64,000 bases of DNA from Phaeobacter inhibens DSM 16374. GTDB lineage: Bacteria > Pseudomonadota > Alphaproteobacteria > Rhodobacterales > Rhodobacteraceae. The position numbers and the translations under genes are program-made. Position 1 is the stretch's first letter, and each line of letters starts with the position of its first letter. The notes beneath the pieces are model-generated. The model saw only the letters and a program-made list of their open reading frames with translations, searched no databases and was not told the origin of the DNA. Below are positions 4,092 through 25,549 of this stretch, piece by piece. The stretch spans positions 124,001 to 188,000 of the forward strand of contig NZ_AXBB01000005.1 of the NCBI RefSeq assembly GCF_000473105.1. Direction: 5' to 3'.

Positions 4092-5584
4092 GCTGCAACG
4101 CCAGAAGGACTCAGGCGCAGCTGCCCCTCCGAGAGAAACCGGATATCATGACCCAAGGCCTCTGCCACCTTCGGGTCATGAGTAAACACGATCAGGGCCA
4201 ACTCTTCCTGTGCCATAAGACGCCTGAACAGTTTGAGAATGGTATCGCGAGTATCGCTGTCCAGCGATGCCGTCGGTTCATCCGCAATGATGCAGCGCGG
4301 CCGCGACACCAAGGCACGCGCAATGGTCAGACGCTGCGCCTCGCCTCCGGACAGGTCTGCTGCGCGCCTTGACAAAAAGGCGCCCGAATGCGGCAGGTCA
4401 ACTCTCTGCATCAGCCCTGCAATATCGACATCGTGGCCCGCGCGACCTATGCGGCGACACAGCCGCATCGCATCGCTCAGCACATCACGCACACTCATAT
4501 GTCGCGCCATTGCCCGATGGGGATGCTGCGAGACCAAAGCCAGCTCCTGTGGGTGGCATATCCGAGGCTGGGCTTCATCGCGGGCCCGCCACAAAATACG
4601 GCCCGTCTGCAAGCGCTCGTATCCGCAGAGTAAGCGGGCCAGCGTAGACTTACCGCCGCCACTCGGGCCAAAGATCGCCAGACACCGACCTGGCCTGACG
4701 GCGGCTGAAATGTCACGCAACACCAGCGTTCCGGTCTGTTGGTGCGACAGCCTCTGGATCACCAGCCCTGACGGGCTCGTCGGCAGCGGTTCGGGCCCTG
4801 GAACCAACGGGACTATGCCCCGTTGCGCCGTAGCACGCGTGCGGTGGACCACGGCGCGCCCGCCCGGCTGCATCAGCATCTCAACCGCAGGACCGCGATC
4901 CACCAGATGTTTGTCATGCAGGATCACCATGCGATCTGCCATCTGCGCTGCCAGATCAAAATCATGGGTGATCAGCAATTGGCTGCGCTGCGCCTGCCCC
5001 GCGCTGAGTGCAGCAACCGCCAGTGCGCGATTGCCGTGATCCAGCGCAGCGGTCGGTTCGTCAAGGATCAGAACCTGCGGATCACGCGCCAAAGCCAACG
5101 CCGTCAAAACCCGCTGGATTTCGCCACCGCTAAGGGTCGCAGGATATCTATGCAGGGTGCGCTCTGGAATATTGAACCGCTTGCACAATGCCAAAGCCAG
5201 TGAGGTCCGGCGGCGGCTGTGCGGGAGCAGCTCTGCCACATGTTGAAAAACGGTCTGATGCGGGTTTAACGCGTCCGACAGGGCCTGCACGATCAGGCTC
5301 AGGTCCGTTCGCCGCAGTTTGCGCTGCTCTGCAAGCGGAGCACGCAGCATATCGACGCCCAGCACCTCCGCGCGCCCTGACCATCTGAAGCCATCCCCGT
5401 TCTGATCAGCTGTCTTCACATGACGGCCAGGCAACACTCCGAGCAATAGCCGCGCCAGCGAAGTCTTACCGCTACCGGACGCTCCCAGCAGTGCCAGTGT
5501 CTGCCCTTTGGGTACCTCAAACGAGACATCCCGAAAGATCGTGCGGGGCCCATGCCAGAGACAGAGATGATCGACCCGGATCAA
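4088..5584 (-). CDS. ABC transporter ATPase, two fused nucleotide-binding domains (peptide/nickel type)
   Basis: A 498-aa protein with two complete ABC cassettes. NBD1 has Walker A GASGSGKTS (about 33-41), signature LSGGEIQRV and Walker B VLILDEPTAALD. NBD2 (from about residue 275) has GPSGGGKST, LSGGEAQRL and CIIADEPTASLD. It fuses what are separate DppD/DppF or NikD/NikE proteins in other bacteria. It energises the importer formed with the two permeases upstream; its start overlaps the permease stop by four bases (ATGA). It ends four bases inside convergent tdaR3. Substrate unknown; the family imports oligopeptides, Ni2+ or metallophore complexes. Confidence 0.92.
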   Translation of the reverse strand: MIRVDHLCLWHGPRTIFRDVSFEVPKGQTLALLGASGSGKTSLARLLLGVLPGRHVKTADQNGDGFRWSGRAEVLGVDMLRAPLAEQRKLRRTDLSLIVQALSDALNPHQTVFQHVAELLPHSRRRTSLALALCKRFNIPERTLHRYPATLSGGEIQRVLTALALARDPQVLILDEPTAALDHGNRALAVAALSAGQAQRSQLLITHDFDLAAQMADRMVILHDKHLVDRGPAVEMLMQPGGRAVVHRTRATAQRGIVPLVPGPEPLPTSPSGLVIQRLSHQQTGTLVLRDISAAVRPGRCLAIFGPSGGGKSTLARLLCGYERLQTGRILWRARDEAQPRICHPQELALVSQHPHRAMARHMSVRDVLSDAMRLCRRIGRAGHDVDIAGLMQRVDLPHSGAFLSRRAADLSGGEAQRLTIARALVSRPRCIIADEPTASLDSDTRDTILKLFRRLMAQEELALIVFTHDPKVAEALGHDIRFLSEGQLRLSPSGVAA

Positions 5585-6390
5585 AACACAGGCCCTAAAA
5601 CCGCACCAGAGCGCAAGCGCCGGTCACCTAATTTCAGTGTCGTATGCAACAACAGCGACAAAAGCGCCGCCGGCGGCAACAGGAGCCACATCCACGCGCC
5701 GGTATAGAGCTGATCCATCGCCGATTGCATCATGCTTCCCCAGGTTAACAAACGTGGATCAGTCAGGCCCAGAAACCCCAGACCCGCAGACTTCAGCGCG
5801 GCCTGTCTGATATTTTGAACCATCAGTGCGCCCAAAAGCGGGCGCAGCGCTGCAAAAAGGTGCCAGCGCCAGCAATAGAACCACCCTGCCCCCATCACGC
5901 GGGCATATTGGACATTTTCGCGCAGAGCCTCTCGCCGCAACACCGCCGCCGCCACCCGCACGTCATCGCTCCAACCTGTCAGCACCAACAATAGGAACAA
6001 CGCCGTGAAACCGGGACTTACCAAGGCCGCGACAAGCAGGAGAAGCAGCATGGTCGGAACAACTTGCAACACATCCACGCACCGCAACATAAGCGCAGAT
6101 AAAAATGGGCCGCCAAACACCACAAGGCTTGCGGCCCCCACAGCAAGGCTCACCGTCACCACCGCAGTTGCCATGGCCAACGTCAGTGTGGTCGGCGTGG
6201 CAAGTATCAGCCCGATCAGCACATCCTGCCCAATCTCATTTGTACCCAGCCAATGCCCCAGCCCCGGCGGCGCCAGCACCGCTCTGCTGCTGTGATATTC
6301 GAGCCATCCACCCGCCCCAGCCAGCCAGATGGCCAGGCACAGCAGGATGACTGCGGCGAAAAGCAGATTCCGTCGGGATGCCAGCTGCAT
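5581..6390 (-). CDS. ABC transporter permease, DppC/NikC type
   Basis: A 269-aa integral membrane protein of the binding-protein-dependent transport family with about six membrane segments. HWLGTNEIGQDVL (about 47-59) is the mark of DppC/NikC-type subunits, and the EAA-loop region lies around AALRREALRENVQYARVMGAG. It abuts the upstream permease (stop at 6391-6393) without any gap and overlaps the ATPase gene downstream by four bases, so the set is one operon. Confidence 0.9.
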   Translation of the reverse strand: MQLASRRNLLFAAVILLCLAIWLAGAGGWLEYHSSRAVLAPPGLGHWLGTNEIGQDVLIGLILATPTTLTLAMATAVVTVSLAVGAASLVVFGGPFLSALMLRCVDVLQVVPTMLLLLLVAALVSPGFTALFLLLVLTGWSDDVRVAAAVLRREALRENVQYARVMGAGWFYCWRWHLFAALRPLLGALMVQNIRQAALKSAGLGFLGLTDPRLLTWGSMMQSAMDQLYTGAWMWLLLPPAALLSLLLHTTLKLGDRRLRSGAVLGPVF

Positions 6391-7434
6391 CTAGCCACGC
6401 CTCGCAAGATGCCCGGACAGGCCATCAACCAACCAGTTCATGAGCAGGACAACGCCTGCCATAAATACGACCGCTCCCTGCAACAGATCATAGTCCCGAT
6501 CAAGGATGGCGCTGTAGATCAGATAACCAGTGCCCGGGTAGGAAAAAACGATTTCCACAAAGAACACGGCACTGACCAGCCCGGTCAACGTATCGCTTAG
6601 CCGTGACAGGCAAGCGGGTATCAGGCTGCGCCCGATATAGGCCCATCGAAGGCGCCAGGGTGAGATTCCGCGTGCCCGTGCATTCACTATGAAATCACGT
6701 TGGGCCAGATTGAGCGTTTCAGCGCGCGCTAGAAAGTAGAACCGCGCCAACTCATGCAGCGCCAACGCCAGCATTGGCAGGATCGCGTGACGCAGAACGC
6801 CCACTGCCCGTCCCAGCTGGTCCATCGCGGGAAAAAGTGGCTCTGCCCCACCAGTAGGCAGAACGGGCCACAGAATGCCAAACACAAGAAGCAGCAATAC
6901 TGCCCCGGTGAATGGTGGTAGGCTTGCCAGCATGGTAACGACAGGCGTGACCCAACGATCCACAGATCCGCCCGGCAGCTGCCCGGCCTCAATCCCCGCC
7001 AGAGCGCCACCAATGAGGAAGACCGGCATAGCGCCTAGGATCAACAACCCAGTCCAGGGCAAGGCAGTCAGTAACAGCTGCAGAACTGGCGCCGCGTGGG
7101 GGATTGAGTAGCCCAGATCGCCAGCGAGCAGCCTAGACAGGTAAGCCCAGACCTGAGAGGCGATCCCACCGCCCAGCCCCATCGTCTCCTGCAATTGCTG
7201 CACCTCGCCGGTCCCAAGGCCCCGTGCGAGATCCGTTGACAGCATGACCTGCAGCGTATCGCCCGGCATCATGCGCGAGAGCATAGCGCAGAGCACAATA
7301 ACAAAGCAGAAGATCAGTAGCCGCAGAACGAACCCGCCGATAAGGCCCGCAAACCTCCCAACAGCTGGTGATCCTGCGCCTGTAATCTCCGTCGGCACCG
7401 GGTGATCCAGCAACGAGGGGGAGGCATTGTCCAC
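6391..7434 (-). CDS. ABC transporter permease, DppB/NikB type
   Basis: A 347-aa membrane protein of the DppB/NikB family: N-terminal segment around residues 28-50, MMPGD (about 57-61) typical of the periplasmic stretch after TM1, and an EAA loop at RDFIVNARARGISPWRLRW. A longer open frame reaches 7524 but would overlap the binding-protein gene by 86 bases. GTG at 7434 was chosen because GGAG sits seven bases upstream, inside the 3' end of the binding-protein gene, which leaves a four-base gap. Partner of the permease and ATPase downstream. Confidence 0.88.
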   Translation of the reverse strand: MDNASPSLLDHPVPTEITGAGSPAVGRFAGLIGGFVLRLLIFCFVIVLCAMLSRMMPGDTLQVMLSTDLARGLGTGEVQQLQETMGLGGGIASQVWAYLSRLLAGDLGYSIPHAAPVLQLLLTALPWTGLLILGAMPVFLIGGALAGIEAGQLPGGSVDRWVTPVVTMLASLPPFTGAVLLLLVFGILWPVLPTGGAEPLFPAMDQLGRAVGVLRHAILPMLALALHELARFYFLARAETLNLAQRDFIVNARARGISPWRLRWAYIGRSLIPACLSRLSDTLTGLVSAVFFVEIVFSYPGTGYLIYSAILDRDYDLLQGAVVFMAGVVLLMNWLVDGLSGHLARRG

Positions 7435-7438
7435 CGGT

Positions 7439-9040
7439 TCACTCCAGGAATATGGATTTGTGAAGCGCTGACGGAATGCCAATGGCCACCCCGCCCGGCA
7501 TGAATGGCGCCGACAGTTTGTCATTGAATACGGTTGCCATCAGCGGGTTGACCAACATGTAGGACGGAAGGTTCTCTGCATAAAGCTGCTGAAATCTGGC
7601 CAGTATCTCCTGGCGTTCGGCCTGACTCTGAGCAACGGCCTGCGCCTTGATCAGGCCTGCCATCTTAGGGTCCGCAGGGAAACGGTCGCTGTTCCAGCCG
7701 CGCCCGAAGACCCTGCGCCGGATATTGCCCGGATCGCCCAACGTGCTGGATGAGAACAACGTCAGATCATAGTCGCCGTCAGCCACCAGACTGCGCAGCG
7801 CGGCGACCTCCATGACCCGAAGATCAACCGCAAATCCAAACGCTTCCAACTGTTCAGCGATCACTCTGGCGGGCTTCACCTCACGACCATCCGTGAGGAG
7901 CCGCAGGCGGATTTCCTCCCCCTGCGTTTGCCAGCGGCCAGCGCGGTTCTGGGTCCACCCTGCAGCCAGTAGCAGGTCGCGCGCCTGAGCCGGGTCGTAG
8001 GCGTAACCCTCCGTTGCCTCGTCACTTTGCCACTTGGAGCCGGGCTGAAAGTAGCCTGTCTCAGCAAGCTCAGCGACCCCGGGAAATGCAATTGCCAGCA
8101 ACGCAGAACGATCAACGGCATAGGCAATGGCTTGGCGCAATTCTATCTTTTGAAACTGTCCACGATGATTGAAGCCCAGCCGCAACACATGGTCACTTGG
8201 CGAGGTTTCGACAGCAAAGCCAGCGTCCAAAGCCTCAGGAAGGCGATCCGGGGGGAGGTATGAAATCACGTCCACCTCTCCGGCGCTCATCGCCTGAAGG
8301 GCGGCATCTGGACCCATTTTTACAATCCAGATCTGGTCAAACCGCGGCCGCCCGAGAGGGTGATCTTCCGTCGCCTCCAACCTGTAACGTCCCTGCGCCT
8401 TGTCGTAGGCGGCCAATCGATAGGGGCCACTGCCAACTGCGGCTTCCGGCGTGGCAAATCGAAAAGGATCTTTCACGCCCTCATAGATATGCCGTGGCAG
8501 GATAGGAATTGCGGAAAACAAACCCTCGACCAAGCCGTATTCCGCGCGTTTGATATGGATGCGCAGATCATGCACCCCCTCGATCTCAATCCCGGCAAGC
8601 GCTTTGACAGATCCAAAAACATAAGGATGCTCAGCCATATAGCGCAGAGTAAAGGTGACATCATCTGCGGTGACCGGGGTTCCGTCATGCCATTTCGCAT
8701 CCCGTTGCAGTTCAAGAGCGTAACTCAAACCGTCCTGAGATCGCGTCCAAGTCCGCGCCAGCCCCGGCACCGAATTGCCATCTGCATCCTGGCTGACAAG
8801 CGTATCAAAGATGTAACTGGTATAAAGATAGGCGATCCCGTTTTTGCGATGAACATAAGGCGCAAGCATGCCACGGTCGCCCTTGCTGTCAGTGATCACC
8901 AACGGCCTCTGGCGATCCGGTTCTGCCGCCATGAGCGCCTCAGCACCCAAACCAAAATACTGCGCAGCGCCAAGCGCCAGTCCGGCAGCCGCAGCATGGG
9001 CAAGGAAACGAGGGCGAATAAACCGGTGAACGAACGACAT
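7439..9040 (-). CDS. Periplasmic solute-binding protein of the peptide/nickel ABC importer (SBP_bac_5)
   Basis: A 533-aa protein with an N-terminal export signal (residues 1 to about 39) and the DppA/OppA/NikA fold: FDTLVSQDADGNSVPGLARTWTRSQDGLSYALELQRDAKWHDGTPVTADDV-like text near residues 78-125 is diagnostic. It captures substrate outside the inner membrane and hands it to the two permeases. It is the first transport gene of the operon, 42 bases after trmO. The ligand is not readable from sequence. Placement inside the TDA locus makes a precursor, a metal or a TDA-metal complex worth testing, but this is conjecture. Confidence 0.9.
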   Translation of the reverse strand: MSFVHRFIRPRFLAHAAAAGLALGAAQYFGLGAEALMAAEPDRQRPLVITDSKGDRGMLAPYVHRKNGIAYLYTSYIFDTLVSQDADGNSVPGLARTWTRSQDGLSYALELQRDAKWHDGTPVTADDVTFTLRYMAEHPYVFGSVKALAGIEIEGVHDLRIHIKRAEYGLVEGLFSAIPILPRHIYEGVKDPFRFATPEAAVGSGPYRLAAYDKAQGRYRLEATEDHPLGRPRFDQIWIVKMGPDAALQAMSAGEVDVISYLPPDRLPEALDAGFAVETSPSDHVLRLGFNHRGQFQKIELRQAIAYAVDRSALLAIAFPGVAELAETGYFQPGSKWQSDEATEGYAYDPAQARDLLLAAGWTQNRAGRWQTQGEEIRLRLLTDGREVKPARVIAEQLEAFGFAVDLRVMEVAALRSLVADGDYDLTLFSSSTLGDPGNIRRRVFGRGWNSDRFPADPKMAGLIKAQAVAQSQAERQEILARFQQLYAENLPSYMLVNPLMATVFNDKLSAPFMPGGVAIGIPSALHKSIFLE

Positions 9041-9082
9041 GAGCCTACTTTCTTTGTGGCTGAAGCACTGTGATTGGCTGCG

Positions 9083-9541
9083 CTACCAGCCGATAGTGGC
9101 TTCGGGGCGGGCATCTTCCTGTGGGACAACGGGTTTCAGATCCACAACCGGGGTGCCGTCAATGCAATCCAGCCCACTGATCGTCAGAACCCCATCGGAG
9201 TGGTTCAGCAATTGAACCGCGCTCAGGCCGATGGGGTTAGGGCGGTTTGGCGCCCGGCTGGCAAAAACCCCGCGGGCAACCTGGCTCCCACGTGCCTGCC
9301 GTATCCGCGCGGTGCGGTCGGATTTATGCAGCCAGTAGAGCACCCACAGATGCGAGGCCAATTCGATATTCTGTAGCGCGCCATGGTATTCAGGGGCCAA
9401 TTCAATCCGACTGGTGGCTGGATTGCGGCGTCCAGACATCGGGCAGTCTCTGACTTCTTCAAACCCGGTGCGAACTACACCAATTGGCCTGATTTCAAAC
9501 GCCTCGGTGGGCACTTTCAGAAGTTGCATCGCATCGGTCAT
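9083..9541 (-). CDS. TrmO/TsaA-family protein (tRNA t6A37 N6-methyltransferase fold)
   Basis: A 152-aa protein with the family signature RAPNRPNPIGLS at about residues 103-114 and the conserved N-terminal IRPIGVVRTGFEE. In E. coli, TrmO methylates N6 of t6A37 in tRNA using S-adenosylmethionine, but TrmO-like single-domain proteins are also found beside metal transport and methyl-transfer genes. A TTG four codons upstream (9553) is possible; ATG at 9541 was preferred. It is the first gene of an operon that continues into a peptide/nickel ABC importer, an unusual setting for a tRNA modification gene. The composite palindrome element lies about 140 bases upstream. Confidence 0.85.
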   Translation of the reverse strand: MTDAMQLLKVPTEAFEIRPIGVVRTGFEEVRDCPMSGRRNPATSRIELAPEYHGALQNIELASHLWVLYWLHKSDRTARIRQARGSQVARGVFASRAPNRPNPIGLSAVQLLNHSDGVLTISGLDCIDGTPVVDLKPVVPQEDARPEATIGW

Positions 9542-9656
9542 GGTGTCTCGCAAACGGTATGTGGGAGGGAATGGGCTGGCTCACCTGTCAAAACAGGTTT
9601 GGGCGGGCCACCGTCGAACGGTTGCCCCCTGATATTGCGCAGGCCAGCCATCGTAA

Positions 9657-9710
9657 AATCGGAAATCCGGAGCGTTAACCTCAGAATTTCTGAGGTCTTG
9701 AGACTCATAG
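9657..9710. promoter_or_regulatory. Composite operator: LysR-like T-N11-A palindrome, copy 1
   Basis: The divergent trmO/DASS intergenic region (9542-9838) holds a perfect 17-bp palindrome CCTCAGAATTTCTGAGG at 9679-9695, which contains TCAGAATTTCTGA (T-N11-A, the LysR-type half-site geometry). AATCG lies 17 bases before it (9657-9661) and GACTCATAG overlaps the tail (CATAG at 9706-9710, 10 bases after). The same three blocks with the same spacings recur at 17286-17339. It sits 138 bases from the trmO start and 144 from the DASS start. Binding by TdaA is an inference. Confidence 0.7.
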
Positions 9711-9838
9711 CATTGAAACCTGACGCTAGCGGAGGGTTTGGATTTTATGAGGCCCCGTCTCTGATAAATCGATTGGCATCAGGCCCCTAACGGGCGGCAT
9801 ATCGGGACCTGACCCCGGATCAGAGGACCTTCAGACGC

Positions 9839-11296
9839 ATGACCGACCAAAGCAACTCAGCCCCGCCAACATCCGCACATCAATTGACCGGCGCAGGCCG
9901 GTCTCTGTCACAAATGCTGCGAAACAAGCGCTCCCTTTGGACAGTGGTTCTGATCCTAACCTGCGCCGGACTGTCAGCTTTCGCGACCTCAATATACCTG
10001 TCCCCCGATCTGATGGGTGTTGCCGCCCTTTCGGTTGGGGCGATTGGTCTTTGGGCAACCGGTCTTGTGCCTGAGTATTGGACGGCCTTGGCCTTTTTTC
10101 TGGTCGCCGTGATATTCAGCGTCGCAGCGCCTGAAACCATATTCTCTGGCTTTCACTCATCAACGTTTTGGCTTTTGTTCAGTGGCTTGGTCCTAGGCGC
10201 TGCCATCAAGCACACCACCCTCGACAAACGGGCTGCCGGTATACTCGCGTTGCTGCCGCTACGCAGTTACGGCGGCCTGCTGACCGGCATCGTGGTCTTT
10301 TCGGTGGCTCTGGCCTTTGTGATGCCATCGTCCATAGGGCGGATCATGATCCTGCTGCCGGTGATCTCTGCGCTGGCGGAGCGCGTCGGCTTTGGCGCTG
10401 CCTCAAATGGTCGGACCGGAATGTTGGCAGTTGCCACCTTTGGCACCTTTGCCCCGGCTTTCACCATTCTGCCGGCGAATGCGCCAAATATGATCCTCGT
10501 GGGGATGTCAGAAACCATCTACGGAATCAATATCTCCTATTTCGACTATCTCCTGCTACATTTTCCCGTGCTTGGCGTTGTGAAATCCGCAGTGCTGGTC
10601 GGGTTGGCCATGGTGATGTTTCCAGACCGCATTCCAACGCATAGCATCAAGGCAGCACCCTCCGCCGCGCCATTCAGCCGCCAGGAACGGATTTTGAGCC
10701 TCGTTTTGGCGTTGTGCCTATTGCTGTGGCTAACCGACCAGATCCATATGGTCTCCCCCGCATGGGTGGGTATGGCAGCAGCATTGATCTGCTTACTGCC
10801 AGGAGCAGATCTCACCCGCAAAGGCTGCATCAACACCGATCTCAGCTACGGAGCCCTGTTGTTTGTGGCTGGCATCATGGGCCTCGGCGCCGTCATATCT
10901 TCCGCTGGGCTTGGCGAAGCTGTAGTGGGGGCCATCACCGGAACCGTCGCCTTCGCTGTGGAGTGGCCGGTATGGAACACGTCGATTCTGATTGGGCTGT
11001 CAACGCTGGTGGCGATGATCACAAATCTACCCGGTGTGCCAGCCGTGATGACCCCACTTGCAGGCGAGTTATCTGACGCAACTGGCTTGCCGCTCGAAAC
11101 GGTCTTGATGACGCAGGTCGTGGCGTTCTCCAATGTCTTCCTCCCGTTCCAGGCACCTCCATTGATCGCAGCCATTCAGGCCGGGAACCTACCCGCGGGG
11201 GCGGTAATCCGACTGTGTCTCAGCCTCTTCCTGATTAGCCTTCTGCTTTTGGCACCGCTGGATCTGCTGTGGTGGCATCTCCTTGGAATGTTCTGA
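9839..11296 (+). CDS. DASS (SLC13/CitT-like) sodium-coupled anion transporter
   Basis: A 485-aa membrane protein with 11-12 hydrophobic segments after a polar N-terminus of about 35 residues. Two inverted halves carry the substrate/Na+ signatures of the family: MPSSIGRIMILLPV (about 161-174) with LPANAPNMILVG (about 213-224), and ITNLPGVPAVMTPL (about 397-410) with a Pro-rich loop near PFQAPPL. Family members move sulfate, di- or tricarboxylates with Na+. The usual SNT motifs are altered (PSS, LPA, TNL), so the substrate is uncertain. ATG at 9839 follows AGAGGACC. It is transcribed away from trmO with the shared palindrome between them; sulfate uptake for a sulfur-rich antibiotic is a possible role. 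Confidence 0.85.
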   Translation: MTDQSNSAPPTSAHQLTGAGRSLSQMLRNKRSLWTVVLILTCAGLSAFATSIYLSPDLMGVAALSVGAIGLWATGLVPEYWTALAFFLVAVIFSVAAPETIFSGFHSSTFWLLFSGLVLGAAIKHTTLDKRAAGILALLPLRSYGGLLTGIVVFSVALAFVMPSSIGRIMILLPVISALAERVGFGAASNGRTGMLAVATFGTFAPAFTILPANAPNMILVGMSETIYGINISYFDYLLLHFPVLGVVKSAVLVGLAMVMFPDRIPTHSIKAAPSAAPFSRQERILSLVLALCLLLWLTDQIHMVSPAWVGMAAALICLLPGADLTRKGCINTDLSYGALLFVAGIMGLGAVISSAGLGEAVVGAITGTVAFAVEWPVWNTSILIGLSTLVAMITNLPGVPAVMTPLAGELSDATGLPLETVLMTQVVAFSNVFLPFQAPPLIAAIQAGNLPAGAVIRLCLSLFLISLLLLAPLDLLWWHLLGMF

Positions 11297-11317
11297 TCCC
11301 GTTGTTTTTACCACGAC

Positions 11318-11353
11318 GAAGGCGCTCCAGAAGAAATACTGAGGGGCGCCTTC
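11318..11353. terminator. Hairpin between the DASS transporter and haloperoxidase-like gene
   Basis: Arms GAAGGCGC (11318-11325) and GCGCCTTC (11346-11353) can pair over a 20-base loop. No T-run follows, so this could be a factor-dependent terminator, an mRNA stability element or chance. Confidence 0.3.
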
Positions 11354-11426
11354 CGGACTTTCGATTTGTGCGAACGGCCAAAGCGTTTCTACCTGTAGCT
11401 GCACTTTTTACGGACGAGGTACTCCG

Positions 11427-12752
11427 ATGTTGACCCTGACCCCATGGCGCCGCCAGCTGCTCTCGCACACCTGTATCACCGGTCTGGCCACCGCGCTCTT
11501 TTTTACCGCCAGCGGATCGGCTCAGGCTGAATTGGCCGCAGACTGGCAGGAAACCGCAATGCGGTTTGTTGTTGAGGAGAAATGGCCCGGCGCGCAACGC
11601 CAGCGCACGCTGGCATTGCTGCATGCTGCGATGTTTGATGCTGCGAATGCCATTGATGGCAGCTATCATGCCTATGCATATGATGGCCCCCAGCAACCCA
11701 GCGCCGATCGACGTGCTGCGGTAACGCAGGCGGCCCTGGTTGTCATGCAGACCCTTATGCCAGAGCGTGAGGCAGACCTGACTGCCGCTGCCGAAGCAAT
11801 CCTGGGCGACATCACAGATGATGAGGCGCGGGAGGCAGGCGTGCAGCTCGGCGCGCTTGCCGCAGAGGCGGTGCTCGAAAAACGGGCAGCGGACGGCGCT
11901 GACTTCGCAAGCGATTTTACCCCTGGTCAGGCAGATAACGGCGTCTATCAGCCCACCTCTGAGCGGCCCATGGTTGCACCCAAAATCCGCAACATGCAGC
12001 CCTTTGCTCTTACCTCCGCCAAGCAGTTCGACGTCCCTCCGCCACCGGAGCTCAACAGTTTTCAGTTTCAGCGTGATCTGGCGGAGGTCGCAAAACTCGG
12101 CGGCGCGGTGTCGCAGAGCAATCCTGAGCTGATCGCTATCGCAAAACTTCATGCCGGGTCCGGGTCGGGAGCTTGGAACCAGATTGCACGCGACAGCAGC
12201 CGCGCCTGCGCGCTCCCACTGGTTGAGGAAGCCCGGACACTTGCACTGCTGAATATTGCTCTGACCGACGCACTGGTCGCCGGGTTCAATGCTAAATACA
12301 CCTATCAGTTCTGGCGGCCGGAAACTGCGATTGCCGCCCTGGGCAAAGGCTATGACCACCCGACACTGGACAAGATAGACGGCTGGTCCCCCTTAGTCGC
12401 TGCCCCCATGCATCCGGAATATCCCTGCCAACACTGCACCAGTGGAAGCGCCGCTCAGCAGGTCATGGAAACTGTCTTTGGTGCAGATGAGTTTACCTTC
12501 AGCTTTGAGGGAAAAGACGGCTACAGCCGCAACTATCAGACCTTCGCGCAATTCGCTGAAGAGGAAGCAGAATCGCGTGTCATCGGCGGCGTACACTATC
12601 GTCGCTCAAACACGGTCGGCGACATGCTCGGCTATCAGATCGGCAGCCACATCAGCGCTGAATTTCTGACACCTGCGGACGCCGGTCCTGGCAGCGATAG
12701 CGCGGCAGCGACGGAGTGCGCGGGCGTTCTGACCTCCAAACTGTCGCAATAA
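11427..12752 (+). CDS. Secreted vanadium-dependent haloperoxidase/PAP2-like protein
   Basis: A 441-aa protein with a signal peptide (cut near ASGSAQA-EL, about residue 36). Helical VHPO/PAP2 core with oxyanion-binding motifs in order: KYTYQFWRPETAI (about 290-302, Lys and Arg), HPEYPCQHCTSGSA (about 331-344, where classical enzymes read PSGHA; a His is present three residues earlier than usual spacing), and RVIGGVHYRRSNTVG (about 379-393, Arg and His). Such proteins bind vanadate and oxidise halide, or act as phosphatases. The altered middle motif makes the activity uncertain. ATG at 11427 follows a GAGGT. It heads a same-strand group with the DoxX-like gene (91 bases downstream). Confidence 0.78.
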   Translation: MLTLTPWRRQLLSHTCITGLATALFFTASGSAQAELAADWQETAMRFVVEEKWPGAQRQRTLALLHAAMFDAANAIDGSYHAYAYDGPQQPSADRRAAVTQAALVVMQTLMPEREADLTAAAEAILGDITDDEAREAGVQLGALAAEAVLEKRAADGADFASDFTPGQADNGVYQPTSERPMVAPKIRNMQPFALTSAKQFDVPPPPELNSFQFQRDLAEVAKLGGAVSQSNPELIAIAKLHAGSGSGAWNQIARDSSRACALPLVEEARTLALLNIALTDALVAGFNAKYTYQFWRPETAIAALGKGYDHPTLDKIDGWSPLVAAPMHPEYPCQHCTSGSAAQQVMETVFGADEFTFSFEGKDGYSRNYQTFAQFAEEEAESRVIGGVHYRRSNTVGDMLGYQIGSHISAEFLTPADAGPGSDSAAATECAGVLTSKLSQ

Positions 12753-12843
12753 CACAGTCAGGATAACGTAATCCCCACAGCAGGTTGCACCTGTTGCGGG
12801 GACCTGCTGCGAATGTGCTCGCCACTAGCCAAGGAGCCAGACT

Positions 12844-13905
12844 ATGGCGCAGCCTGTCTCTGCCCGTATAGTTCTCAGTCTGGGTCTCGGCCTGATCCTG
12901 ATCAGCGGATCTGCGGCAGCACATGAACCATGGCTGCTGACGCCCCAAGAGGTTCAAACCCTGTCACAGCGCAGCGTGCCCGAGCTGTTTCGCAGCCCTG
13001 GCCTATTGCTTGTCTTCGCCCTTTTCGCAACGCTCGCCGTATTCGCAGCCGTTCTCGCGGGGCAACTCTTGCGCCCAAAGGAGGACCGGCTTTTCAGAAG
13101 CTTGAATCATCGCAGTCACGACTGGGGTCCGTTGTGCCTGCGTCTTGGTCTGGGGACAACTGTGGGCATGAATGCTATGGGCGGACTGCCCCGGCACGGC
13201 ACTGAAACATGGAGCACCCCAACACTGTTTGTCCCCGATATGCAGCTGGCTCTTATCCCCGGCTGGGACTGGCTTGCGTTGCCTGCGCTGATCACATCTG
13301 TGTTGCTGGTATTGGGGCTTGGTACACGGCTGGCCGCTCTCGGCATCCTTGGTCTTGTTGCGTTTGGCAGCTGCCTGTTCTCCCTCGACTTCATCGCCTA
13401 CTACGGCTTCCATTTTGCCGCGCCGGCGTTTCTGCTCCTGCATGTTGGTAGTGGCTCACTCAGCCTTGATCGCCTGCTGCCGCCAAGCCTCCCACCGCTT
13501 TTGCCCAATGCGCCTTCGTTGGTCTGGAGCTTGGTTCAAATAACCATGGGCGGAACCTTTGCAGTGATCGCTGTCTTGGTGAAATTTCTGCAACCCACCC
13601 TGCTGATCGCAATTCTGGAGCACGGGAACATATGGTTCTTCGGCCTGCCGCTATCGGTTGTTGCACTGACGATGATGGCGATTGAGCTGATGGCCGGCAT
13701 TCTCCTAGCCCTTGGGCAATTGATACGGCCCATCTCGCTGTTTCTGCTCTGTGCTTTCACCTTCTTCGCAATCAGCCTGCAGGAAACGCCCCTGCTGCAT
13801 GGCAATCTATATGGGGTTTTTCTATTCTTCCTGCTGCACGGCGGCGCCCCTATTGATCTGTTGCAGCGACCGCAGGCCGCCCTTTCCGAAGCCCAAAGGG
13901 CCTAG
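12844..13905 (+). CDS. DoxX-like polytopic membrane protein
   Basis: A 353-aa protein with a signal-like first segment ending in SGSAAAHEPWLL, then about eight further hydrophobic segments. Two DoxX-type four-helix units can be made out: LRLGLGTTVGMNAMGGLP onward (about 99-215) and WSLVQITMGGTFAVIAVLVKFLQP onward (about 228-345). DoxX-family proteins are membrane subunits linked to quinone, thiosulfate or redox stress functions; the exact role is unknown here. It is preceded by a haloperoxidase-like gene and followed after four bases by a small His-rich exported protein gene, so it is probably in an operon with it. Confidence 0.65.
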   Translation: MAQPVSARIVLSLGLGLILISGSAAAHEPWLLTPQEVQTLSQRSVPELFRSPGLLLVFALFATLAVFAAVLAGQLLRPKEDRLFRSLNHRSHDWGPLCLRLGLGTTVGMNAMGGLPRHGTETWSTPTLFVPDMQLALIPGWDWLALPALITSVLLVLGLGTRLAALGILGLVAFGSCLFSLDFIAYYGFHFAAPAFLLLHVGSGSLSLDRLLPPSLPPLLPNAPSLVWSLVQITMGGTFAVIAVLVKFLQPTLLIAILEHGNIWFFGLPLSVVALTMMAIELMAGILLALGQLIRPISLFLLCAFTFFAISLQETPLLHGNLYGVFLFFLLHGGAPIDLLQRPQAALSEAQRA

Positions 13906-13909
13906 CGGG

Positions 13910-14351
13910 ATGCTGCAAAGAGTGTTCTGCATCAGCATGCTTGCCGCGACCCCGCTCATTGCCATCTGTGCCTGCCTGCCGCAGATCAAACAGGTGGACG
14001 CCCTGCCCGCTGCACTTTTTGTCACGCTTCCGGCTCACCAACCGCAGCCAGACCTTCGGGTCAGCAGCGTCTACAACGCGGCGGATGGTTGGCGCCTGCG
14101 GATCGAGGTCGCGAATTTCGTCTTCACCGACCTTTGCGTCAGCAATGCCACCGACCTGGCCGCGGGGGCATGCCCATGTTCATCTTGGTGACAAAAAACT
14201 CGCTACTGCCTATCAGCCAAATGTCGTGCTCGGACATCTACCAACCGGGCGGCATCGCGTTACGGTGTCCCTTCGTGCACAGGATCATCGGGTTCTTGGA
14301 CGGGAAAGGGGCGGGATATTCGCAGCTACGGTCATCATTGACGCACTCTGA
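13910..14351 (+). pseudogene. Exported His-motif protein gene interrupted by a single-base frameshift
   Basis: From ATG 13910 the frame encodes a lipoprotein-like signal (ATPLIAICAC) and a domain reading LRIEVANFVFTDLC, then stops at 14191 after an out-of-place tail. Removing one G from the G5 run at 14164-14168 joins it to the next frame, which continues GHAHVHLGDKKL through LPTGRHRVTVSL and DHRVLGRE to a stop at 14349-14351, giving a coherent protein of about 146 aa. The GHAHVH motif followed by a YxP-GxLPxGxH pattern resembles small metal-binding exported proteins seen with DoxX or copper genes. It could be a real null allele, phase variation in the G-run, or a sequence error. It starts four bases after the DoxX-like gene. 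Confidence 0.75.
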
Positions 14352-14359
14352 CGCAGAGT

Positions 14360-14387
14360 AAAACCGGCGCAGCTGCATCTGCGCCGG
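14360..14387 (-). terminator. Rho-independent terminator for paaZ2-tdaF
   Basis: On the reverse strand, CCGGCGCAG and CTGCGCCGG (plus-strand 14364-14387) form a 9-bp stem with a 6-base loop followed by TTTT. It lies 28 bases beyond the tdaF stop. Confidence 0.8.
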
Positions 14388-14414
14388 ATAGTATCAGATC
14401 CCTATTGGCCGATA

Positions 14415-14984
14415 TCAGCGAGCTGTGGGCAAACGATTTTGCAGAATCTGCACAACCTTCTCCGGATCGGGCAGCGAGTGATGCCCGTGCTGGATCTTCA
14501 GCAACGGATCGTAGTTCTCGCGCCAAACCGGTTCAAACACCTCATAGCCGTCTTCGCGCAGCTGGGAGACGTTGCGACGCACCGCCGGCTTTTCCCACAT
14601 CGGACCGCCCATGACAGGGAACAGCAACACCGGAAAGGTCGCGGCCAGAATCACAGTGGTCAGTCGGTTTTGCGAGGATCCATGCGCTATCGCAGACAGC
14701 GTATTCGCCGTCGTAGGCAGAATGGCCAGAATATCGTGATCCGCAACAATGCGGCCCGGTTTATCGGTCGGCCAATCCTTGGGGTTATCACCGCTGATCA
14801 CCCGATCCAGAAACAACGCGACCGCGTCCATATTAACGAATTTCGTTGCAGTTGGTGTAAACAGCGCGGTGAGTTCACAGTCGATCTCATTCTTGATCGC
14901 CCGAAGGTACAGCGGCAGCATCGTGGCATCCAGTGAGCCCGTAACCCCAATGAGAATACGCGGGCGCGAAGCAGTGTCAGTCAT
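14415..14984 (-). CDS. tdaF: TdaF, flavin-dependent decarboxylase-family (HFCD) protein
   Basis: A 189-aa flavoprotein related to phosphopantothenoylcysteine decarboxylase and EpiD. GVTGSLDATMLPLYLRAIK (about 12-30) is the flavin phosphate-binding stretch, ILPTTANTLSAIAHG (about 94-108) matches the AP-ATANT(I)AK-G motif, and PVMGGPMWEKPAV (about 127-139) replaces the usual PAMN-x2-MW-x2-P. The family oxidatively decarboxylates C-terminal or cysteine thiols; TdaF is required for TDA and is thought to take part in sulfur incorporation. ATG at 14984 follows AGGA, placing it 34 bases after the paaZ2 stop, in one operon. Confidence 0.9.
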   Translation of the reverse strand: MTDTASRPRILIGVTGSLDATMLPLYLRAIKNEIDCELTALFTPTATKFVNMDAVALFLDRVISGDNPKDWPTDKPGRIVADHDILAILPTTANTLSAIAHGSSQNRLTTVILAATFPVLLFPVMGGPMWEKPAVRRNVSQLREDGYEVFEPVWRENYDPLLKIQHGHHSLPDPEKVVQILQNRLPTAR

Positions 14985-15018
14985 TGAAAATGTCCTGTAA
15001 TCAGTTTGTTGAAATACT

Positions 15019-17151
15019 CTATTCAGCCGGTTGCTGAACCGGATCCTGTGCCCTGTGAGGGGTGGCTGCCGTATGCGGCGCAGCTTTATGTTCACTCACG
15101 TTGTGCTGAGGAACCGGCGGCCAACTCTTCATCACCAGGGTCAGCAGATCGAACCGAGCGACCACCGCACCACAGGCATTCAGAACGCAACAGTCCCAAC
15201 GCACATCTCCAAAGGGAGCAGAGGCGCGCGGTGTGATTTCCTTGCAGGTCACGCGCACATGCAAGGAATCGCCAAAATACACCGGTGCGTGAAAACGCAA
15301 ATTATCGGAGCCGATATTGGCCAGAACAGGGCCTGGCGCAGGATCAACCAGAAGCCCGTTCGCAAAGGACACCACCAATTGCCCATGCGCGACACGGTCA
15401 TCAAAAAACGGGTGTGAGCGTGCTGCTTCACGGTCCATATGGGCGTAGAATACATCCCCCGTAAAATGGGCAAATTGCTCTACATCCTGTTCAGTAATCT
15501 GTCGCGTTTCAGTGATGAGCTGATCCCCAATCCGCAATGTTTCCAGAGATTTACGAAACGGGTGCCCGTTGTGCCTGGTCTCCGCCCCTTCAACCCATCG
15601 GCCCGTGAGTGCGGTCAGCAACTGCGGCGGCGCGTGTATCTCCGTGCGCATCATATAGGCGGCGACGGCATGGCGGATGTCTTCTGCGCCACAGACCTGT
15701 GCATGGTGTGTCGCAGCGAATAGCCGCGGCACTGATGGATCCGGCGACAACTCCAAGGCCTGACGTGCCATTTCACTTCCGCAAATCCGGATTTGACCTT
15801 CCGCTGATGTCAGGCAGGCCGCTGCTTCCTGTGCCAGTGGGCTATCGTTGGTAAAAACATTTGAGTAGCGCGAGCAGGGCGCCAGATTGGCAAGCGCGAT
15901 CGCGTCACACAGGCTGTCGTAGGCCATAGCCGTCGCCACGGGCCCCTGAACGAAGGTATGGTGAACATCAGGGGTGTTGGCAGGCTTGGCGCAGTGCAAT
16001 AGCACTGGCGACAGAAAAGCCCCGCCCGTCTCACCCGGTGTAATAATCGGTTCGGATACGAACTCTGCCACATGACGTAACTCATCCAGTGCCTTCTGCA
16101 CTGTCTCAAGATGCCCGCGTGAGACCAATGCCCCCATCTGGGTGGCTGCATCATCCGGCACTCCGAGAATAGTATCCGCTAGGGTCGCGGACAGATCTGC
16201 GAGTACTTCGGCCTCGCGGTGGCGGGGCAGAAGAATACGGCGCACTGCATGACGCCGCTGGCCGGCCCTCAGGATCAATTCACTGCGGATCTCCCGCAGG
16301 AAAAACTGATATTCTTGGCTGCCCGGGGCCACGTCGCTGCCGAGGATCGCTGCAGACAGGCCCGTCTCGCAGGATTGCAGCCGCACCAGACCGGCAGCCA
16401 CCGCGGGGTGCTGCCGTAATTTCTGGGCCGTACTGCGGGAGCCGGCAAAGCTGATTGCGTCTCCGGCGGACAGGTTGTCCACAAGCCCCAGAGGCGGGTT
16501 GTATATCAGTTGCAAGGCCCCGGTTGGCAGGATCTGACTGTCGTGAATCAGCTTCACCAAGCGTTCGCTCACACAGGCGGTGACTGGATCCGGGCAGACG
16601 ATGCATGGCACGCCAGCGATGAGTGCGGGCGCTATTTGCTCCAGAAGCCCCGAAACCGGATTATCCAGCGCAGTAACATGCAGCGCAACACCGGACAGCG
16701 GGGCGAGGATCTGCTGGCGGCCGGTGGTGCTGCCCGGTCCGATACCATCCTCAAGGTGCAGGACTGGCGCATTGGGCAGTGACTTCAACGCCTGCCCGGC
16801 CAGAGCCGACAGGCGCGCAATACCGCCGTCCACATCCAGTTCACAGTCATGCCGCGTCGCACCAATGGTCAGGCTCTCACGATAGAGTGCAGCGCGATTG
16901 TCCTTCAAAATACGTGCAACAGCCCGCAGTTGCTGCGCACGATCCTGAAACCCCATAGCGCGCAATGCAGGCCCTCCGACCGCTCGGGCAAAGTCAACGG
17001 CCTGGATCCCGTCATCACTACCGTAAGCAAGCACAGCATTAGGTTGGTTGGTTGCCGCATCGGCAAACACCTGGGTCTGCGCGCCGCAGTGATCCCATCT
17101 TTCTGCAATCAAACTTTGAAGAAAACGGGGTCGTTTTACATGATCAGTCAC
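15019..17151 (-). CDS. paaZ2: PaaZ2, oxepin-CoA hydrolase with an inactive aldehyde dehydrogenase domain
   Basis: A 710-aa PaaZ homologue: ALDH domain (about 1-520) and MaoC-like hydratase domain (about 540-675). In standard PaaZ, Glu256 and Cys295 drive aldehyde oxidation. Here the aligned positions (+5) are Cys261 (QSCETGLS, normally NVEADSLN) and Arg300 (GQRRHAVRR, normally GQKCTAIRR), so oxidation should be lost. The hydratase pair is intact: Asp566 and His571 in HFTGDVFYAHMD, with VAHGQLV following. Ring opening of oxepin-CoA would leave the free aldehyde, which can recyclise to the seven-membered TDA precursor; this matches what is described for the second PaaZ of TDA producers. GTG at 17151 follows AGAGGG. 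First gene of the paaZ2-tdaF operon. Confidence 0.92.
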   Translation of the reverse strand: MTDHVKRPRFLQSLIAERWDHCGAQTQVFADAATNQPNAVLAYGSDDGIQAVDFARAVGGPALRAMGFQDRAQQLRAVARILKDNRAALYRESLTIGATRHDCELDVDGGIARLSALAGQALKSLPNAPVLHLEDGIGPGSTTGRQQILAPLSGVALHVTALDNPVSGLLEQIAPALIAGVPCIVCPDPVTACVSERLVKLIHDSQILPTGALQLIYNPPLGLVDNLSAGDAISFAGSRSTAQKLRQHPAVAAGLVRLQSCETGLSAAILGSDVAPGSQEYQFFLREIRSELILRAGQRRHAVRRILLPRHREAEVLADLSATLADTILGVPDDAATQMGALVSRGHLETVQKALDELRHVAEFVSEPIITPGETGGAFLSPVLLHCAKPANTPDVHHTFVQGPVATAMAYDSLCDAIALANLAPCSRYSNVFTNDSPLAQEAAACLTSAEGQIRICGSEMARQALELSPDPSVPRLFAATHHAQVCGAEDIRHAVAAYMMRTEIHAPPQLLTALTGRWVEGAETRHNGHPFRKSLETLRIGDQLITETRQITEQDVEQFAHFTGDVFYAHMDREAARSHPFFDDRVAHGQLVVSFANGLLVDPAPGPVLANIGSDNLRFHAPVYFGDSLHVRVTCKEITPRASAPFGDVRWDCCVLNACGAVVARFDLLTLVMKSWPPVPQHNVSEHKAAPHTAATPHRAQDPVQQPAE

Positions 17152-17285
17152 TTCAAAGCCCTCTTGCTGTGCAATCGCCGGATGATGCGGTGTCCTGATA
17201 ACCGGACCCCTGTTCGGCGGCCTAGTTCACCAGAAAGATCCAGTCATTCAGCTGCTAGGGTTCATGCAAAGCGTGCGTTACATCC

Positions 17286-17339
17286 AATCGAAACTTTGAA
17301 ATCTGCGCCTCAGAATTTCTGAGGCTGACGGACGCATAG
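17286..17339. promoter_or_regulatory. Composite operator: LysR-like T-N11-A palindrome, copy 2
   Basis: In the 332-base gap between divergent paaZ2 and the SDR gene (17152-17483) the palindrome CCTCAGAATTTCTGAGG recurs at 17308-17324. AATCG (17286-17290) again lies 17 bases before it, and GACGCATAG again places CATAG (17335-17339) 10 bases after it. It is 157 bases from the paaZ2 start and 160 from the SDR start. Identical core and spacing to 9657-9710 argue for one regulator; the rest of the gap shows nothing else I can name. Confidence 0.72.
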
Positions 17340-17483
17340 ACCATCAGACATCGCTGATGCCCTACCTCAAGATTTTCGATGTGCAATTTTTGTCTGCCGC
17401 TGCGAGCTTGCCTGCGGATGGAGGGCACCCTGCGTGTCAATCCTCCCAGGTTGAACGTATCGCTCTAAGAAGGGGACAATGCC

Positions 17484-18593
17484 ATGACCGGTGCCACCTC
17501 GTCGCAAAACCTGAGACAGGCCTCCTTTGGCGGCACTGAACACACGGCTCGGCATATCTGCGTGGCGGGTGTTTCCGGGCTTGCGGGCGCACATATCGCC
17601 CGCGCCGCCCTCGCGTTGGGATGGCGTGTCACCGGCACATTGCGGGACGCGACAGATACCTCGAAAACTGTTCCGCTCATGGCCTTGCCCGGTGCCCGCG
17701 ACAGGCTCCGTCTAATATCCGCAGACACGGCCCAACCCGAAAGTTTCGCCGATGCGTTGAAGGGTAGCGATGCATTGGTCATCGCCTGCCTGCCGTCTAT
17801 TCGCAGCGCCCCGGACGGGACCCCCGCAAACGATCTGGATCCGCGCGCCGGGATGGCGCATTGCATAAACCCTACAAAAACAGCCTGCCGCAACCTGATC
17901 ACAGCGGCGGATCGCAACGGAATTGGCGATATCGTGCTTCTGTCGAGCACCGCTTCCACAGATCCGAACCCGCCCCCAGCGATCAAGAATGAACTGCGGC
18001 ACCATTCTGACCTTGAACACCAGATTGAGCAGAAGAAGTTCATAGCGGCGCAGAAAACCGCGATGGAAATTGCCGCGACACGTCTGGCACAGGACCGTGA
18101 CTTGCGTCTGGTTATTCTGCTCTCGGGCATGATCCTTGGCCCTGGGATACTGCCCTGCCATCATCAGGGTCATGTGCTGAGCCGTCTTCGCGATATGGCA
18201 GTCAATGCACGTCCGTGGCATCGCAACACGCCAAATGGGTCAATGTCGCTGATCCATCCGGCAGATTTGGCCAGGCAATGTCTGGCCGCTCTGCAAAAAC
18301 CCGAAGCGGAAGGCCGCTACTTTGCCGTCACAAAAAGTTGGCAATGGTCTGATATATATCAAGAGATATCAAATTTCGCACCCGAAAACGCCTTGCCCGC
18401 AGTTGTCCCCAAGGGGACAACTGCCGTAGCCACCACTGAGTTTGATTTCACCAGACGAGACAGCCTTGCACCGCCCCGTCACGGGTTGCCCGAGATGGTT
18501 TCCGGCTTTTATCACTGGCTGGATGATTGCAACGACGCAAAGCTGGACCATCCGGAAATTGGTGCTGAACCGGCAGGCGCCGTGTCCAGATAG
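17484..18593 (+). CDS. SDR-like NAD(P)-binding protein lacking the catalytic Tyr
   Basis: A 369-aa protein of the extended/atypical short-chain dehydrogenase superfamily. The nucleotide-binding glycines G29-x2-G32-x2-G35 (CVAGVSGLAGAHIAR) are present. The usual YxxxK becomes I187-A-A-Q-K191 (FIAAQKTAMEIAA), so the Lys is kept and the Tyr is not; LLSSTAS (about 152-158) supplies the Ser region. It is more likely a cofactor-binding regulator or chaperone, or uses another acid, than a standard reductase. ATG at 17484 follows AAGGGGACA. It diverges from paaZ2 across the shared palindrome, and its end lies four bases from the convergent transglycosylase gene. Confidence 0.72.
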   Translation: MTGATSSQNLRQASFGGTEHTARHICVAGVSGLAGAHIARAALALGWRVTGTLRDATDTSKTVPLMALPGARDRLRLISADTAQPESFADALKGSDALVIACLPSIRSAPDGTPANDLDPRAGMAHCINPTKTACRNLITAADRNGIGDIVLLSSTASTDPNPPPAIKNELRHHSDLEHQIEQKKFIAAQKTAMEIAATRLAQDRDLRLVILLSGMILGPGILPCHHQGHVLSRLRDMAVNARPWHRNTPNGSMSLIHPADLARQCLAALQKPEAEGRYFAVTKSWQWSDIYQEISNFAPENALPAVVPKGTTAVATTEFDFTRRDSLAPPRHGLPEMVSGFYHWLDDCNDAKLDHPEIGAEPAGAVSR

Positions 18594-19911: not shown

Positions 19912-20385
19912 TCATCCCGCGGAGACCGGAATTTCAAGGCTGACTTTCTTGCGCCCCATCACCACAGAGGTCCGGAAGCGACGCACATTTGAGTCCTCGA
20001 AAAACAACCGCTTGGTCAACTCTTCAAAGGCCTCCATATCCGACGCGGTGCAGATCAGACAGAAATCCGCCTCACCTGTCAGATAGTAGCACTGCTGAAC
20101 CATCGGTTCGGACCCTGCCCGGCGGGTGAAGGCGTCGATCTGATCCAACCGCTCCCGTTCCAGTTCCACCATCACCACAAATGTCATTGGCATACCGACC
20201 TTGGCCGGGTCAACCAATGCAATTTCATCCGTGATTACCTTGCGTTGGCGCAGCGATTTCAGGCGCCGCTGTACGGAGGCAGCCGACAACCCCGCCTGAG
20301 CCGCCATAGCCTCAAGCCCAAGCCGCGTATTGCGTTGCAGAAGCGTTAGAAGCGTCACATCCGCCTTATCGAGTTTTTCACCCAT
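19912..20385 (-). CDS. Lrp/AsnC-family transcriptional regulator
   Basis: A 157-aa protein: N-terminal helix-turn-helix (LLQRNTRLGLEAMAAQAGLSAASVQRRLKSLRQRKVI, about 13-50) and a C-terminal RAM ligand-binding domain (about 70-150). It diverges across 84 bases from the PLP lyase/amidohydrolase pair, which it most likely controls in response to an amino acid. The shared gap is AT-rich, with the promoter text TTGACCAGAACATAGCAATACTC near 20430-20453. Confidence 0.92.
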   Translation of the reverse strand: MGEKLDKADVTLLTLLQRNTRLGLEAMAAQAGLSAASVQRRLKSLRQRKVITDEIALVDPAKVGMPMTFVVMVELERERLDQIDAFTRRAGSEPMVQQCYYLTGEADFCLICTASDMEAFEELTKRLFFEDSNVRRFRTSVVMGRKKVSLEIPVSAG

Positions 20386-23767: not shown

Positions 23768-23771
23768 GGGT

Positions 23772-24785: not shown

Positions 24786-25189
24786 ATCCGGGCCATCATC
24801 GTCACGCGTGTTCCTTTGCCTTCTTCGGTTTCGACCTCCAGCGCATCGCTCAGGCGTTTCGCGCCGCCCAGGCCGCGCCCCATGCTCCCTGCAGTGCTGA
24901 AACCATCGCTGAACGCAGCGTCCAGATCCGCAATCCCGGGCCCATTGTCGACACAGACCACGCTGATTGCGGACGGTTCACTGTGCATATAGATACGCGC
25001 TTCGCCTCCGCCACCATGCATCACCACATTTCTTGCAATTTCACTGACCGCAGTGACAAAGCGGGTTTTTTGAACGGTGCGCGTACCGCGCTGAGCCATT
25101 TCACGGCCAGCGATCCTGCGCACCTGAATAACATCGCGATCTCCGATCAGTGCATAAATACCGATCAGAACACCATCCGTGGGTATCAT
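24782..25189 (-). CDS. rsbT: RsbT-like serine/threonine kinase of the stressosome
   Basis: A 135-aa GHKL protein: N-box around SEIARNVVMHGGGG (about 50-63), G1 box VDNGPGI (about 80-86), G2 box GSMGRGLGGAKRLSD (about 100-114) and GKGTRVTM. RsbT binds the STAS scaffold, phosphorylates RsbS/RsbR upon stress and leaves to activate its target. ATG at 25189 overlaps the rsbS stop (ATGA), and its own end overlaps the phosphatase gene, so dosage is tightly coupled. Confidence 0.9.
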   Translation of the reverse strand: MIPTDGVLIGIYALIGDRDVIQVRRIAGREMAQRGTRTVQKTRFVTAVSEIARNVVMHGGGGEARIYMHSEPSAISVVCVDNGPGIADLDAAFSDGFSTAGSMGRGLGGAKRLSDALEVETEEGKGTRVTMMARI

Positions 25190-25548: not shown

Positions 25549-25549
25549 G

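Follow-up and report, generated by a model that had tools for sequence, protein, structure and literature searches.

Paired palindromes in the TDA island of Phaeobacter inhibens as probable recognition boxes of two-box LysR-type operators at six transcription units

Tropodithietic acid (TDA) serves Phaeobacter as both antibiotic and signal, and the genus has been studied as a probiont of fish larvae (PMC3425499). Two divergent intergenic gaps in the TDA island of P. inhibens DSM 16374 carry the same spaced sequence element, which raises the question of which regulator reads it and which of the flanking genes it serves. The LysR-type protein TdaA is a candidate: its binding has been reported for the tdaC promoter region (PMC6224355, citing Geng and Belas 2011), and tdaR1–R3 are described as co-regulated by it (PMC7497051). 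TDA loci have also been described in Janthinobacterium (PMC13163973). Below, the window denotes the whole 64,000-nt stretch of DNA that we analysed, which belongs to a contig of 226,687 bases; its positions 9000–18000 match plasmid pPGA1_262 of P. inhibens DSM 17395 at 98.8% identity.

A rare palindrome and the larger element around it

The element reads AATCG-N17-CCTCAGAATTTCTGAGG-N10-CATAG at window positions 9657–9710 and 17286–17339, letter for letter as an initial annotation had described it, and GAC-N-CATAG is common to both copies. Its central 17-mer is a perfect odd palindrome that lies about 143–159 bases from the four annotated or orthologous gene starts; the two divergent gaps have no longer word in common. 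With up to three mismatches allowed, the 17-mer occurs at only two places in the window (four matches, counting both strands), against a mean of 0.18 matches in shuffled windows, and none of 100 shuffles reached four. The genome of 4,130,897 bases holds two exact copies, one copy with a single mismatch on contig C1, and otherwise only places with three mismatches. Odd palindromes with 8-bp arms number four in the window, both island copies among them, and a coincidence of flanking 5-mers at equal offsets is only modestly improbable, at least two of them arising in 1.45% of 20,000 shuffles. A relaxed form, CCTCA-N7-TGAGG, has 15 places in the genome, of which three fall in the TDA island; the third of these, CCTCATTATACCTGAGG at G000:C2:123624, lies upstream of tdaC, 377 bp to the left of the window, where the initial annotation had proposed to look. 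The single-mismatch copy, CCTCAGTATTTCTGAGG at G000:C1:150246–150262 (L003 1501–1517), lies some 195 bp upstream of a response-regulator-like ORF, and its surroundings gave no match in plasmid records. Our site models match only its first box (E 0.63 and 0.33), and we set it aside as an unproven operator.

The palindrome proved to be one half of a larger element, in which CCTCAG-N5-CTGAGG, itself of T-N11-A form, is followed 22 bp on by a second T-N11-A box ending in CGATT. In the direction of the target gene, CGATT or a close variant stands at exactly N17 from the palindrome. The initial annotation had included both flanking 5-mers, and the first of these, AATCG, which reads CGATT on the opposite strand, is conserved across species, except that P. 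porticola has TGATT at its TrmO site. CATAG and GAC, considered as further operator parts, were rejected, as neither is conserved in the aligned gaps of P. inhibens, P. gallaeciensis, P. piscinae, P. porticola and Phaeobacter G001 (the last in the SDR|paaZ2 gap only). An ungapped alignment of 60 sites, whose rows represent orthologous groups and not independent events and from which Stappia sites and missing sites are left out, places the box centres 22 bp apart, with G16 and T27 present in all 60 rows. T27 was unscored in the choice of sites, though its flag was printed at choosing; A39, found in 57/60, is not independent, since sites were picked by palindrome and CGATT and many were anchored on CGATT. 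The T and A of the second box occur together in 57/60 sites and those of the first (T5 and A17) in 41/60. The best-kept part of the first box is its right half, CTGAGG, and the left halves are degenerate before the haloperoxidase (VHPO) and DASS genes.

LysR-type operators typically combine a high-affinity T-N11-A palindrome near −65 with a secondary site that extends beyond the −35 box and is required for activation (PMC4834489, PMC11739112). We observed a palindromic T-N11-A primary box at paaZ2, TrmO and tdaC and a downstream second box at fixed spacing, and the palindrome centre would fall near −65 if the −35 box is the hexamer that follows CGATT. The LysR-type geometry that had been read from the T-N11-A of the palindrome is thereby borne out by two such boxes in register. 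The correct unit would be a directional two-box LysR operator before each of six transcription units, with the SDR member the weakest.

Six candidate operators and their predicted target genes

As assigned from annotated relatives and protein family searches, the island comprises a second LysR-type gene, tdaA, tdaB, tdaC-tdaD-tdaE with tdaR1–3, the TrmO-ABC genes, a DASS-family transporter gene, the VHPO gene with two hypothetical genes that follow it on the same strand, paaZ2-tdaF and an SDR gene (Table 1).

Table 1. Candidate operator boxes and predicted target genes of the TDA island (window positions unless a contig is named)
Feature	Position	Strand	Basis or remark
TrmO-ABC, predicted recognition box (CCTCAG-N5-CTGAGG, T-N11-A)	9679–9695	−	palindrome, rarity, model R1
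TrmO-ABC, putative activation box TCCGGATTTCCGA (T-N11-A, 22 bp from palindrome)	9659–9671	−	overlaps first AATCG
paaZ2-tdaF, predicted recognition box (palindrome)	17308–17324	−	within 41-bp stretch conserved in five Phaeobacter species
paaZ2-tdaF, putative activation box TTCAAAGTTTCGA (T-N11-A)	17288–17300	−	overlaps second AATCG
DASS, degenerate predicted recognition box, right half ATGAGG	9736–9752	+	R1 match at 9748–9779
DASS, putative activation box TCTGATAAATCGA	9760–9772	+	very similar stretch before DASS in Pseudovibrio, Tritonibacter, Epibacterium
VHPO (haloperoxidase), degenerate predicted recognition box, right half CTGAGG	11328–11344	+	R1 match at 11332–11368
VHPO, putative activation box TCCGGACTTTCGA (T-N11-A)	11352–11364	+	
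SDR, degenerate predicted recognition box CATCAG...CTGATG, 1 bp too long	17343–17359	+	R1 match at 17344–17386 with 1-nt insert
SDR, putative activation box TCAAGATTTTCGA	17367–17379	+	part CGATGTGCAAT conserved in Phaeobacter and Pseudovibrio
paaZ2 (predicted target)	15019–17151	−	NCBIfam TIGR02278 above cut-off
tdaF, flavoprotein (predicted target)	14415–15095	−	Pfam Flavoprotein; tblastn
SDR/epimerase gene (predicted target)	17484–18593	+	Pfam Epimerase
DASS-family transporter gene (predicted target)	9839–11296	+	Pfam Na_sulph_symp; NCBIfam dass below cut-off
Vanadium-dependent haloperoxidase-like gene (predicted target)	11427–12752	+	named from orthologue annotation; own Pfam match DUF6851 just below cut-off
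TrmO / substrate-binding protein / permeases / ATPase, predicted operon (predicted target)	4088–9529	−	
tdaA, LysR-type regulator gene	G000:C2:121549–122436 (outside window)		

Model R1 was built from 19 sites of Pseudovibrio, Tritonibacter and Epibacterium, picked with the Phaeobacter consensus in mind; it contains no Phaeobacter site and no VHPO site. Its top six places in the 4.13-Mb genome all fall in the TDA island, before paaZ2 (E 2.8e-6), TrmO (5.9e-6), VHPO (3.1e-5), DASS (0.009), tdaC (0.014) and SDR (0.26), and the best place outside the island, on C6, has an E of 0.32. The VHPO site, absent from the initial annotation, is a true prediction, since no VHPO site was in the training set. 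This genome-wide ranking supports the suggestion, made there from the two palindromes, that the regulon may extend to paaZ2-tdaF, SDR, TrmO-ABC and DASS.

A reciprocal model, R2, was built from 14 Phaeobacter sites of paaZ2, TrmO and tdaC. Its best match is the VHPO gap in all three Pseudovibrio genomes searched (E 2.1e-6 to 2.7e-6), and in two of these TrmO ranks next; in Pseudovibrio Ad37 an off-island match (0.044) outranks the tdaC site (0.094). The two best matches in Epibacterium are tdaC and paaZ2, at only 0.028 and 0.040, the best in Tritonibacter (0.0047) lies off the tda contig, with the VHPO gap at 0.40, and R2 gave no match in Stappia. The off-island R2 matches in two Pseudovibrio (L112, L116) were discarded, as by eye they appear to be one corresponding place where a coding stretch ends next to a terminator-like hairpin, and not a promoter.

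Model R3 includes own sites, so that its matches arise partly by construction; at E < 0.01 it finds six sites in each of G000, G001 and G004 and five in each of G002 and G005, 28 in total and all on the tdaA contig. Its best match off the tdaA contig among seven Phaeobacter genomes has an E of 0.084. We rejected this chromosomal match (E 0.084 to 0.092) as a TdaA site, as it recurs in five Phaeobacter genomes including G006, which is without TdaA; that it is the same place in each was judged from equal scores alone. Among the Phaeobacter genomes the SDR site gives no match at E ≤ 1 in G005 and scores 0.16 in G002. The profile searches scored at most 150 first-look candidates (77, under stricter filters, in an 80-genome sample of the family), and weak sites may escape them.

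Conservation of the sites and distribution of TdaA

Across the same five Phaeobacter, identical columns amount to 37/41 at the paaZ2 site (a count reached by 6 of 292 windows of its gap), 36/41 at VHPO (7/90), 33/41 at DASS (2/245) and 33/41 at tdaC (6/482). Taken as a block, the TrmO site is no more conserved than its gap (21/41 columns, reached by 151/245 windows) and the SDR site is unremarkable (18/39, reached by 110/292), its recognition half not being conserved in the alignment. The tdaC copy has counterparts in four further Phaeobacter species, with an outer-arm mismatch in P. gallaeciensis, and in three Pseudovibrio.

Beyond the genus, a site facing paaZ2 or tdaF, with at least 10 of 12 box letters and then CGATT or CAATT, is present in 11/11 gaps (five Phaeobacter, four Pseudovibrio, Tritonibacter and Epibacterium), and a TrmO-facing site followed by CGATT, TGATT or CGAAT in 9/9 gaps of Phaeobacter and Pseudovibrio. 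A tdaC-facing palindrome is found in 8/8 gaps of these two genera, followed by CGAAT or TGAAT, or in three Pseudovibrio by CAGCT or CATCT. The box scan detected no site before TrmO of Epibacterium or before tdaC of Tritonibacter and no full site before DASS of either; weak sites occur before tdaC of Epibacterium (8/12 letters) and in Stappia (9/12 or fewer). Pseudovibrio keeps TdaA, SDR, tdaF, VHPO, DASS, TrmO-ABC and tdaB–E, with paaZ2 unmatched in the stretches searched, and TrmO-ABC is likewise unmatched in the Tritonibacter stretch searched and sits on the other side of SDR in Epibacterium. Pseudovibrio Ad37 and Alg231-02 have separate palindromes for SDR and for tdaF; in two Pseudovibrio the SDR|tdaF gap (L046 9773–10115 and L047 9773–10115) holds two palindromes, one per direction, and paaZ2 is unmatched beside tdaF. 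The Stappia TDA locus is rearranged, with tdaC divergent from DASS (L063 4635–5268, L051 9049–9500), and has boxes of the form CCTCGG...CGAGG with CGAAT or CGACT at N17; the Tritonibacter palindrome is CCTCGG...CTGAAG. Tritonibacter and Stappia fit the site model poorly.

The distribution of TdaA parallels that of the sites. The TdaA proteins of P. inhibens, Pseudovibrio and Tritonibacter carry HTH_1 and LysR_substrate domains, and the tdaA gene is found in every TDA locus whose tdaA side was examined (Pseudovibrio Alg231-02 excluded). Five of seven Phaeobacter genomes encode TdaA, and the same five have a best R1 E of 2.8e-6 or below; the two genomes without it have no strong site (best E 0.19 and 0.585). 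In the 80-genome family sample, scanned for sites only, R1 reaches E < 0.026 only in G000 and G005 (none in the other 78), with five others at 0.027 to 0.099, and at E ≤ 1e-30 TdaF was found in just these two of 394 family genomes. Between Phaeobacter and Pseudovibrio the HTH of TdaA is 90% identical and the remainder 54–56%. In Tritonibacter, Epibacterium and Stappia it is 65–69% identical vs 43–45% for the remainder, and the boxes drift there too; in Stappia, where the HTH is 69% identical, regulator and operator have possibly drifted together.

tdaA itself has no divergent target beside it, and the three gaps scanned hold no site before it, so that the classical arrangement for negative autoregulation is not seen here. 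Such a divergent arrangement is common for LysR-type regulators, not required. The Phaeobacter gaps scanned show no site before tdaA or tdaB, and in Pseudovibrio Ad37 the gap between these two genes has only a weak site (9/12 box letters).

A proposed TdaA operator and its alternatives

We consider it highly probable that the palindromes serve as recognition boxes within a two-box LysR-type operator through which TdaA would bind at six island units. As a pair of dimers, TdaA would bind the palindrome CCTCAG-N5-CTGAGG strongly and would also contact the second T-N11-A box, centred 22 bp downstream and ending in CGATT, beside or over the putative −35 region; in response to an inducer, perhaps TDA or a pathway intermediate, it would then activate transcription. 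The six directional copies would face tdaC–E/tdaR1–3, DASS, the haloperoxidase gene and its followers, TrmO-ABC, paaZ2-tdaF and SDR. Because strong sites track TdaA across Phaeobacter genomes and the tdaC copy contains a predicted TdaA site, the guess of TdaA in the initial annotation is probably correct.

That annotation had also supposed one symmetric operator per gap controlling both divergent genes, with AATCG and CATAG as side elements. The symmetry and mid-gap position of the palindrome, the weakness of the Phaeobacter SDR site and the precedent of ThnR, a LysR-type activator that can couple divergent promoters (PMC4834489), all speak for such sharing. Yet the palindromes point to TrmO-ABC and paaZ2-tdaF, separate sites with equal box spacing, degenerate in their first boxes, face DASS and SDR, CATAG is unconserved, and the two directions have distinct palindromes in Pseudovibrio Ad37 and Alg231-02, which makes a shared operator unlikely. 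A different reader of the same sites is less likely still, the candidates being the second LysR protein, the LuxR-type PgaR, or an Lrp/AsnC regulator encoded at 19912–20385. Quorum sensing does control tdaA–F, which are down in pgaI and pgaR mutants (PMC5429656), and the second LysR and AsnC genes lie close by, the former directly upstream of tdaA in Phaeobacter (L017 6357–7280; 94% identical in G001). Against this, the second LysR gene is matched only in Phaeobacter and not in the Pseudovibrio or Tritonibacter stretches searched, yet Pseudovibrio has sites; its HTH shares 34% identity with the HTH of TdaA; T-N11-A boxes in tandem are characteristic of LysR-type regulators (PMC4834489, PMC11739112); and the two Phaeobacter genomes without TdaA lack a strong site. 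We give hardly any credence to the palindromes being terminator hairpins in RNA or copies of a small dispersed repeat: short inverted repeats with GC ends can fold into hairpins and a one-mismatch copy does exist on C1, but the palindromes lie between divergent starts with no T run after copies 1 and 2, only two exact copies occur, the 17-mer is the longest word common to the gaps, and a second DNA box stands at fixed spacing across genera.

The proposed two-box TdaA operator agrees with published work on tdaC. A TdaA site has been predicted there at −223 to −211, TCAGGTTTTTTGAA (PMC6224355), which coincides with our second box, at −224 to −212 in this strain; to this our analysis adds a palindromic first box lying 22 bp upstream, a further five candidate promoters and conservation across genera. 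In the TDA-negative variant NCV12a1 of P. inhibens 2.10, one base is inserted within this predicted site, at pPGA2_239:106349 (PMC6224355). In plasmid pPGA2_239 the 14-mer at 106347–106360 is the second box of the tdaC element and the palindrome lies at 106368–106384, so the insertion would break the second box; as NCV12a1 also carries an anmK mutation (PMC6224355), we make no firm causal claim. Deletion of tdaB in P. piscinae lowers paaZ2, paaK2 and tdaF transcripts and the TdaC, TdaD, TdaR3, PaaZ2 and TdaF proteins (PMC9942592), which fits one feedback-controlled regulon, although the mutant there is in tdaB and not tdaA.

By analogy, ThnR is one LysR-type activator of at least four promoters, with a primary and a secondary site per direction in a divergent gap (PMC4834489). 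It differs in serving a catabolic pathway, in needing the co-activator ThnY and in having one primary site at −75; typical secondary sites are termed non-conserved in that paper, whereas the second box here is well conserved, and cooperation, demonstrated for ThnR, may also occur in the TDA island. The lys box of PltR in pyoluteorin synthesis is a 22-bp box with a 4-bp gap serving one operon (PMC3382589), in contrast to the 17-bp palindromes, conserved second box and six promoters described here, for which TDA or an intermediate is a presumed inducer.

On balance we favour a broader proposal in which TdaA alone would switch the whole TDA island, acting through six directional two-box operators, with HTH and operators inherited and drifted together in Phaeobacter, Tritonibacter, Epibacterium, Stappia and Pseudovibrio; paired sites in a gap may cooperate. 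If TdaA is such a switch, haloperoxidase, DASS, SDR and TrmO-ABC would be part of TDA production, export or self-protection. The type of control was already known; what appears to be new is how far it extends, its haloperoxidase target and its conservation across genera, as the open literature on TDA regulation, key 2011 paper not included, yielded no list of TdaA-type sites at further promoters. The common operator would place ten neighbour genes of unclear role under the same switch (SDR, DASS, haloperoxidase with its two followers, and five of TrmO-ABC) and make these testable as members of the TDA pathway. It also gives exact bases for mutation and suggests how a known TDA-negative mutation may act, and the site model can serve as a genome-wide search tool for TDA loci.

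Further along the window, at 22607–25578, adjoining genes whose products have histidine-kinase (HisKA_2/HWE), SpoIIE, anti-sigma-like ATPase and STAS domains resemble a partner-switching signalling module.
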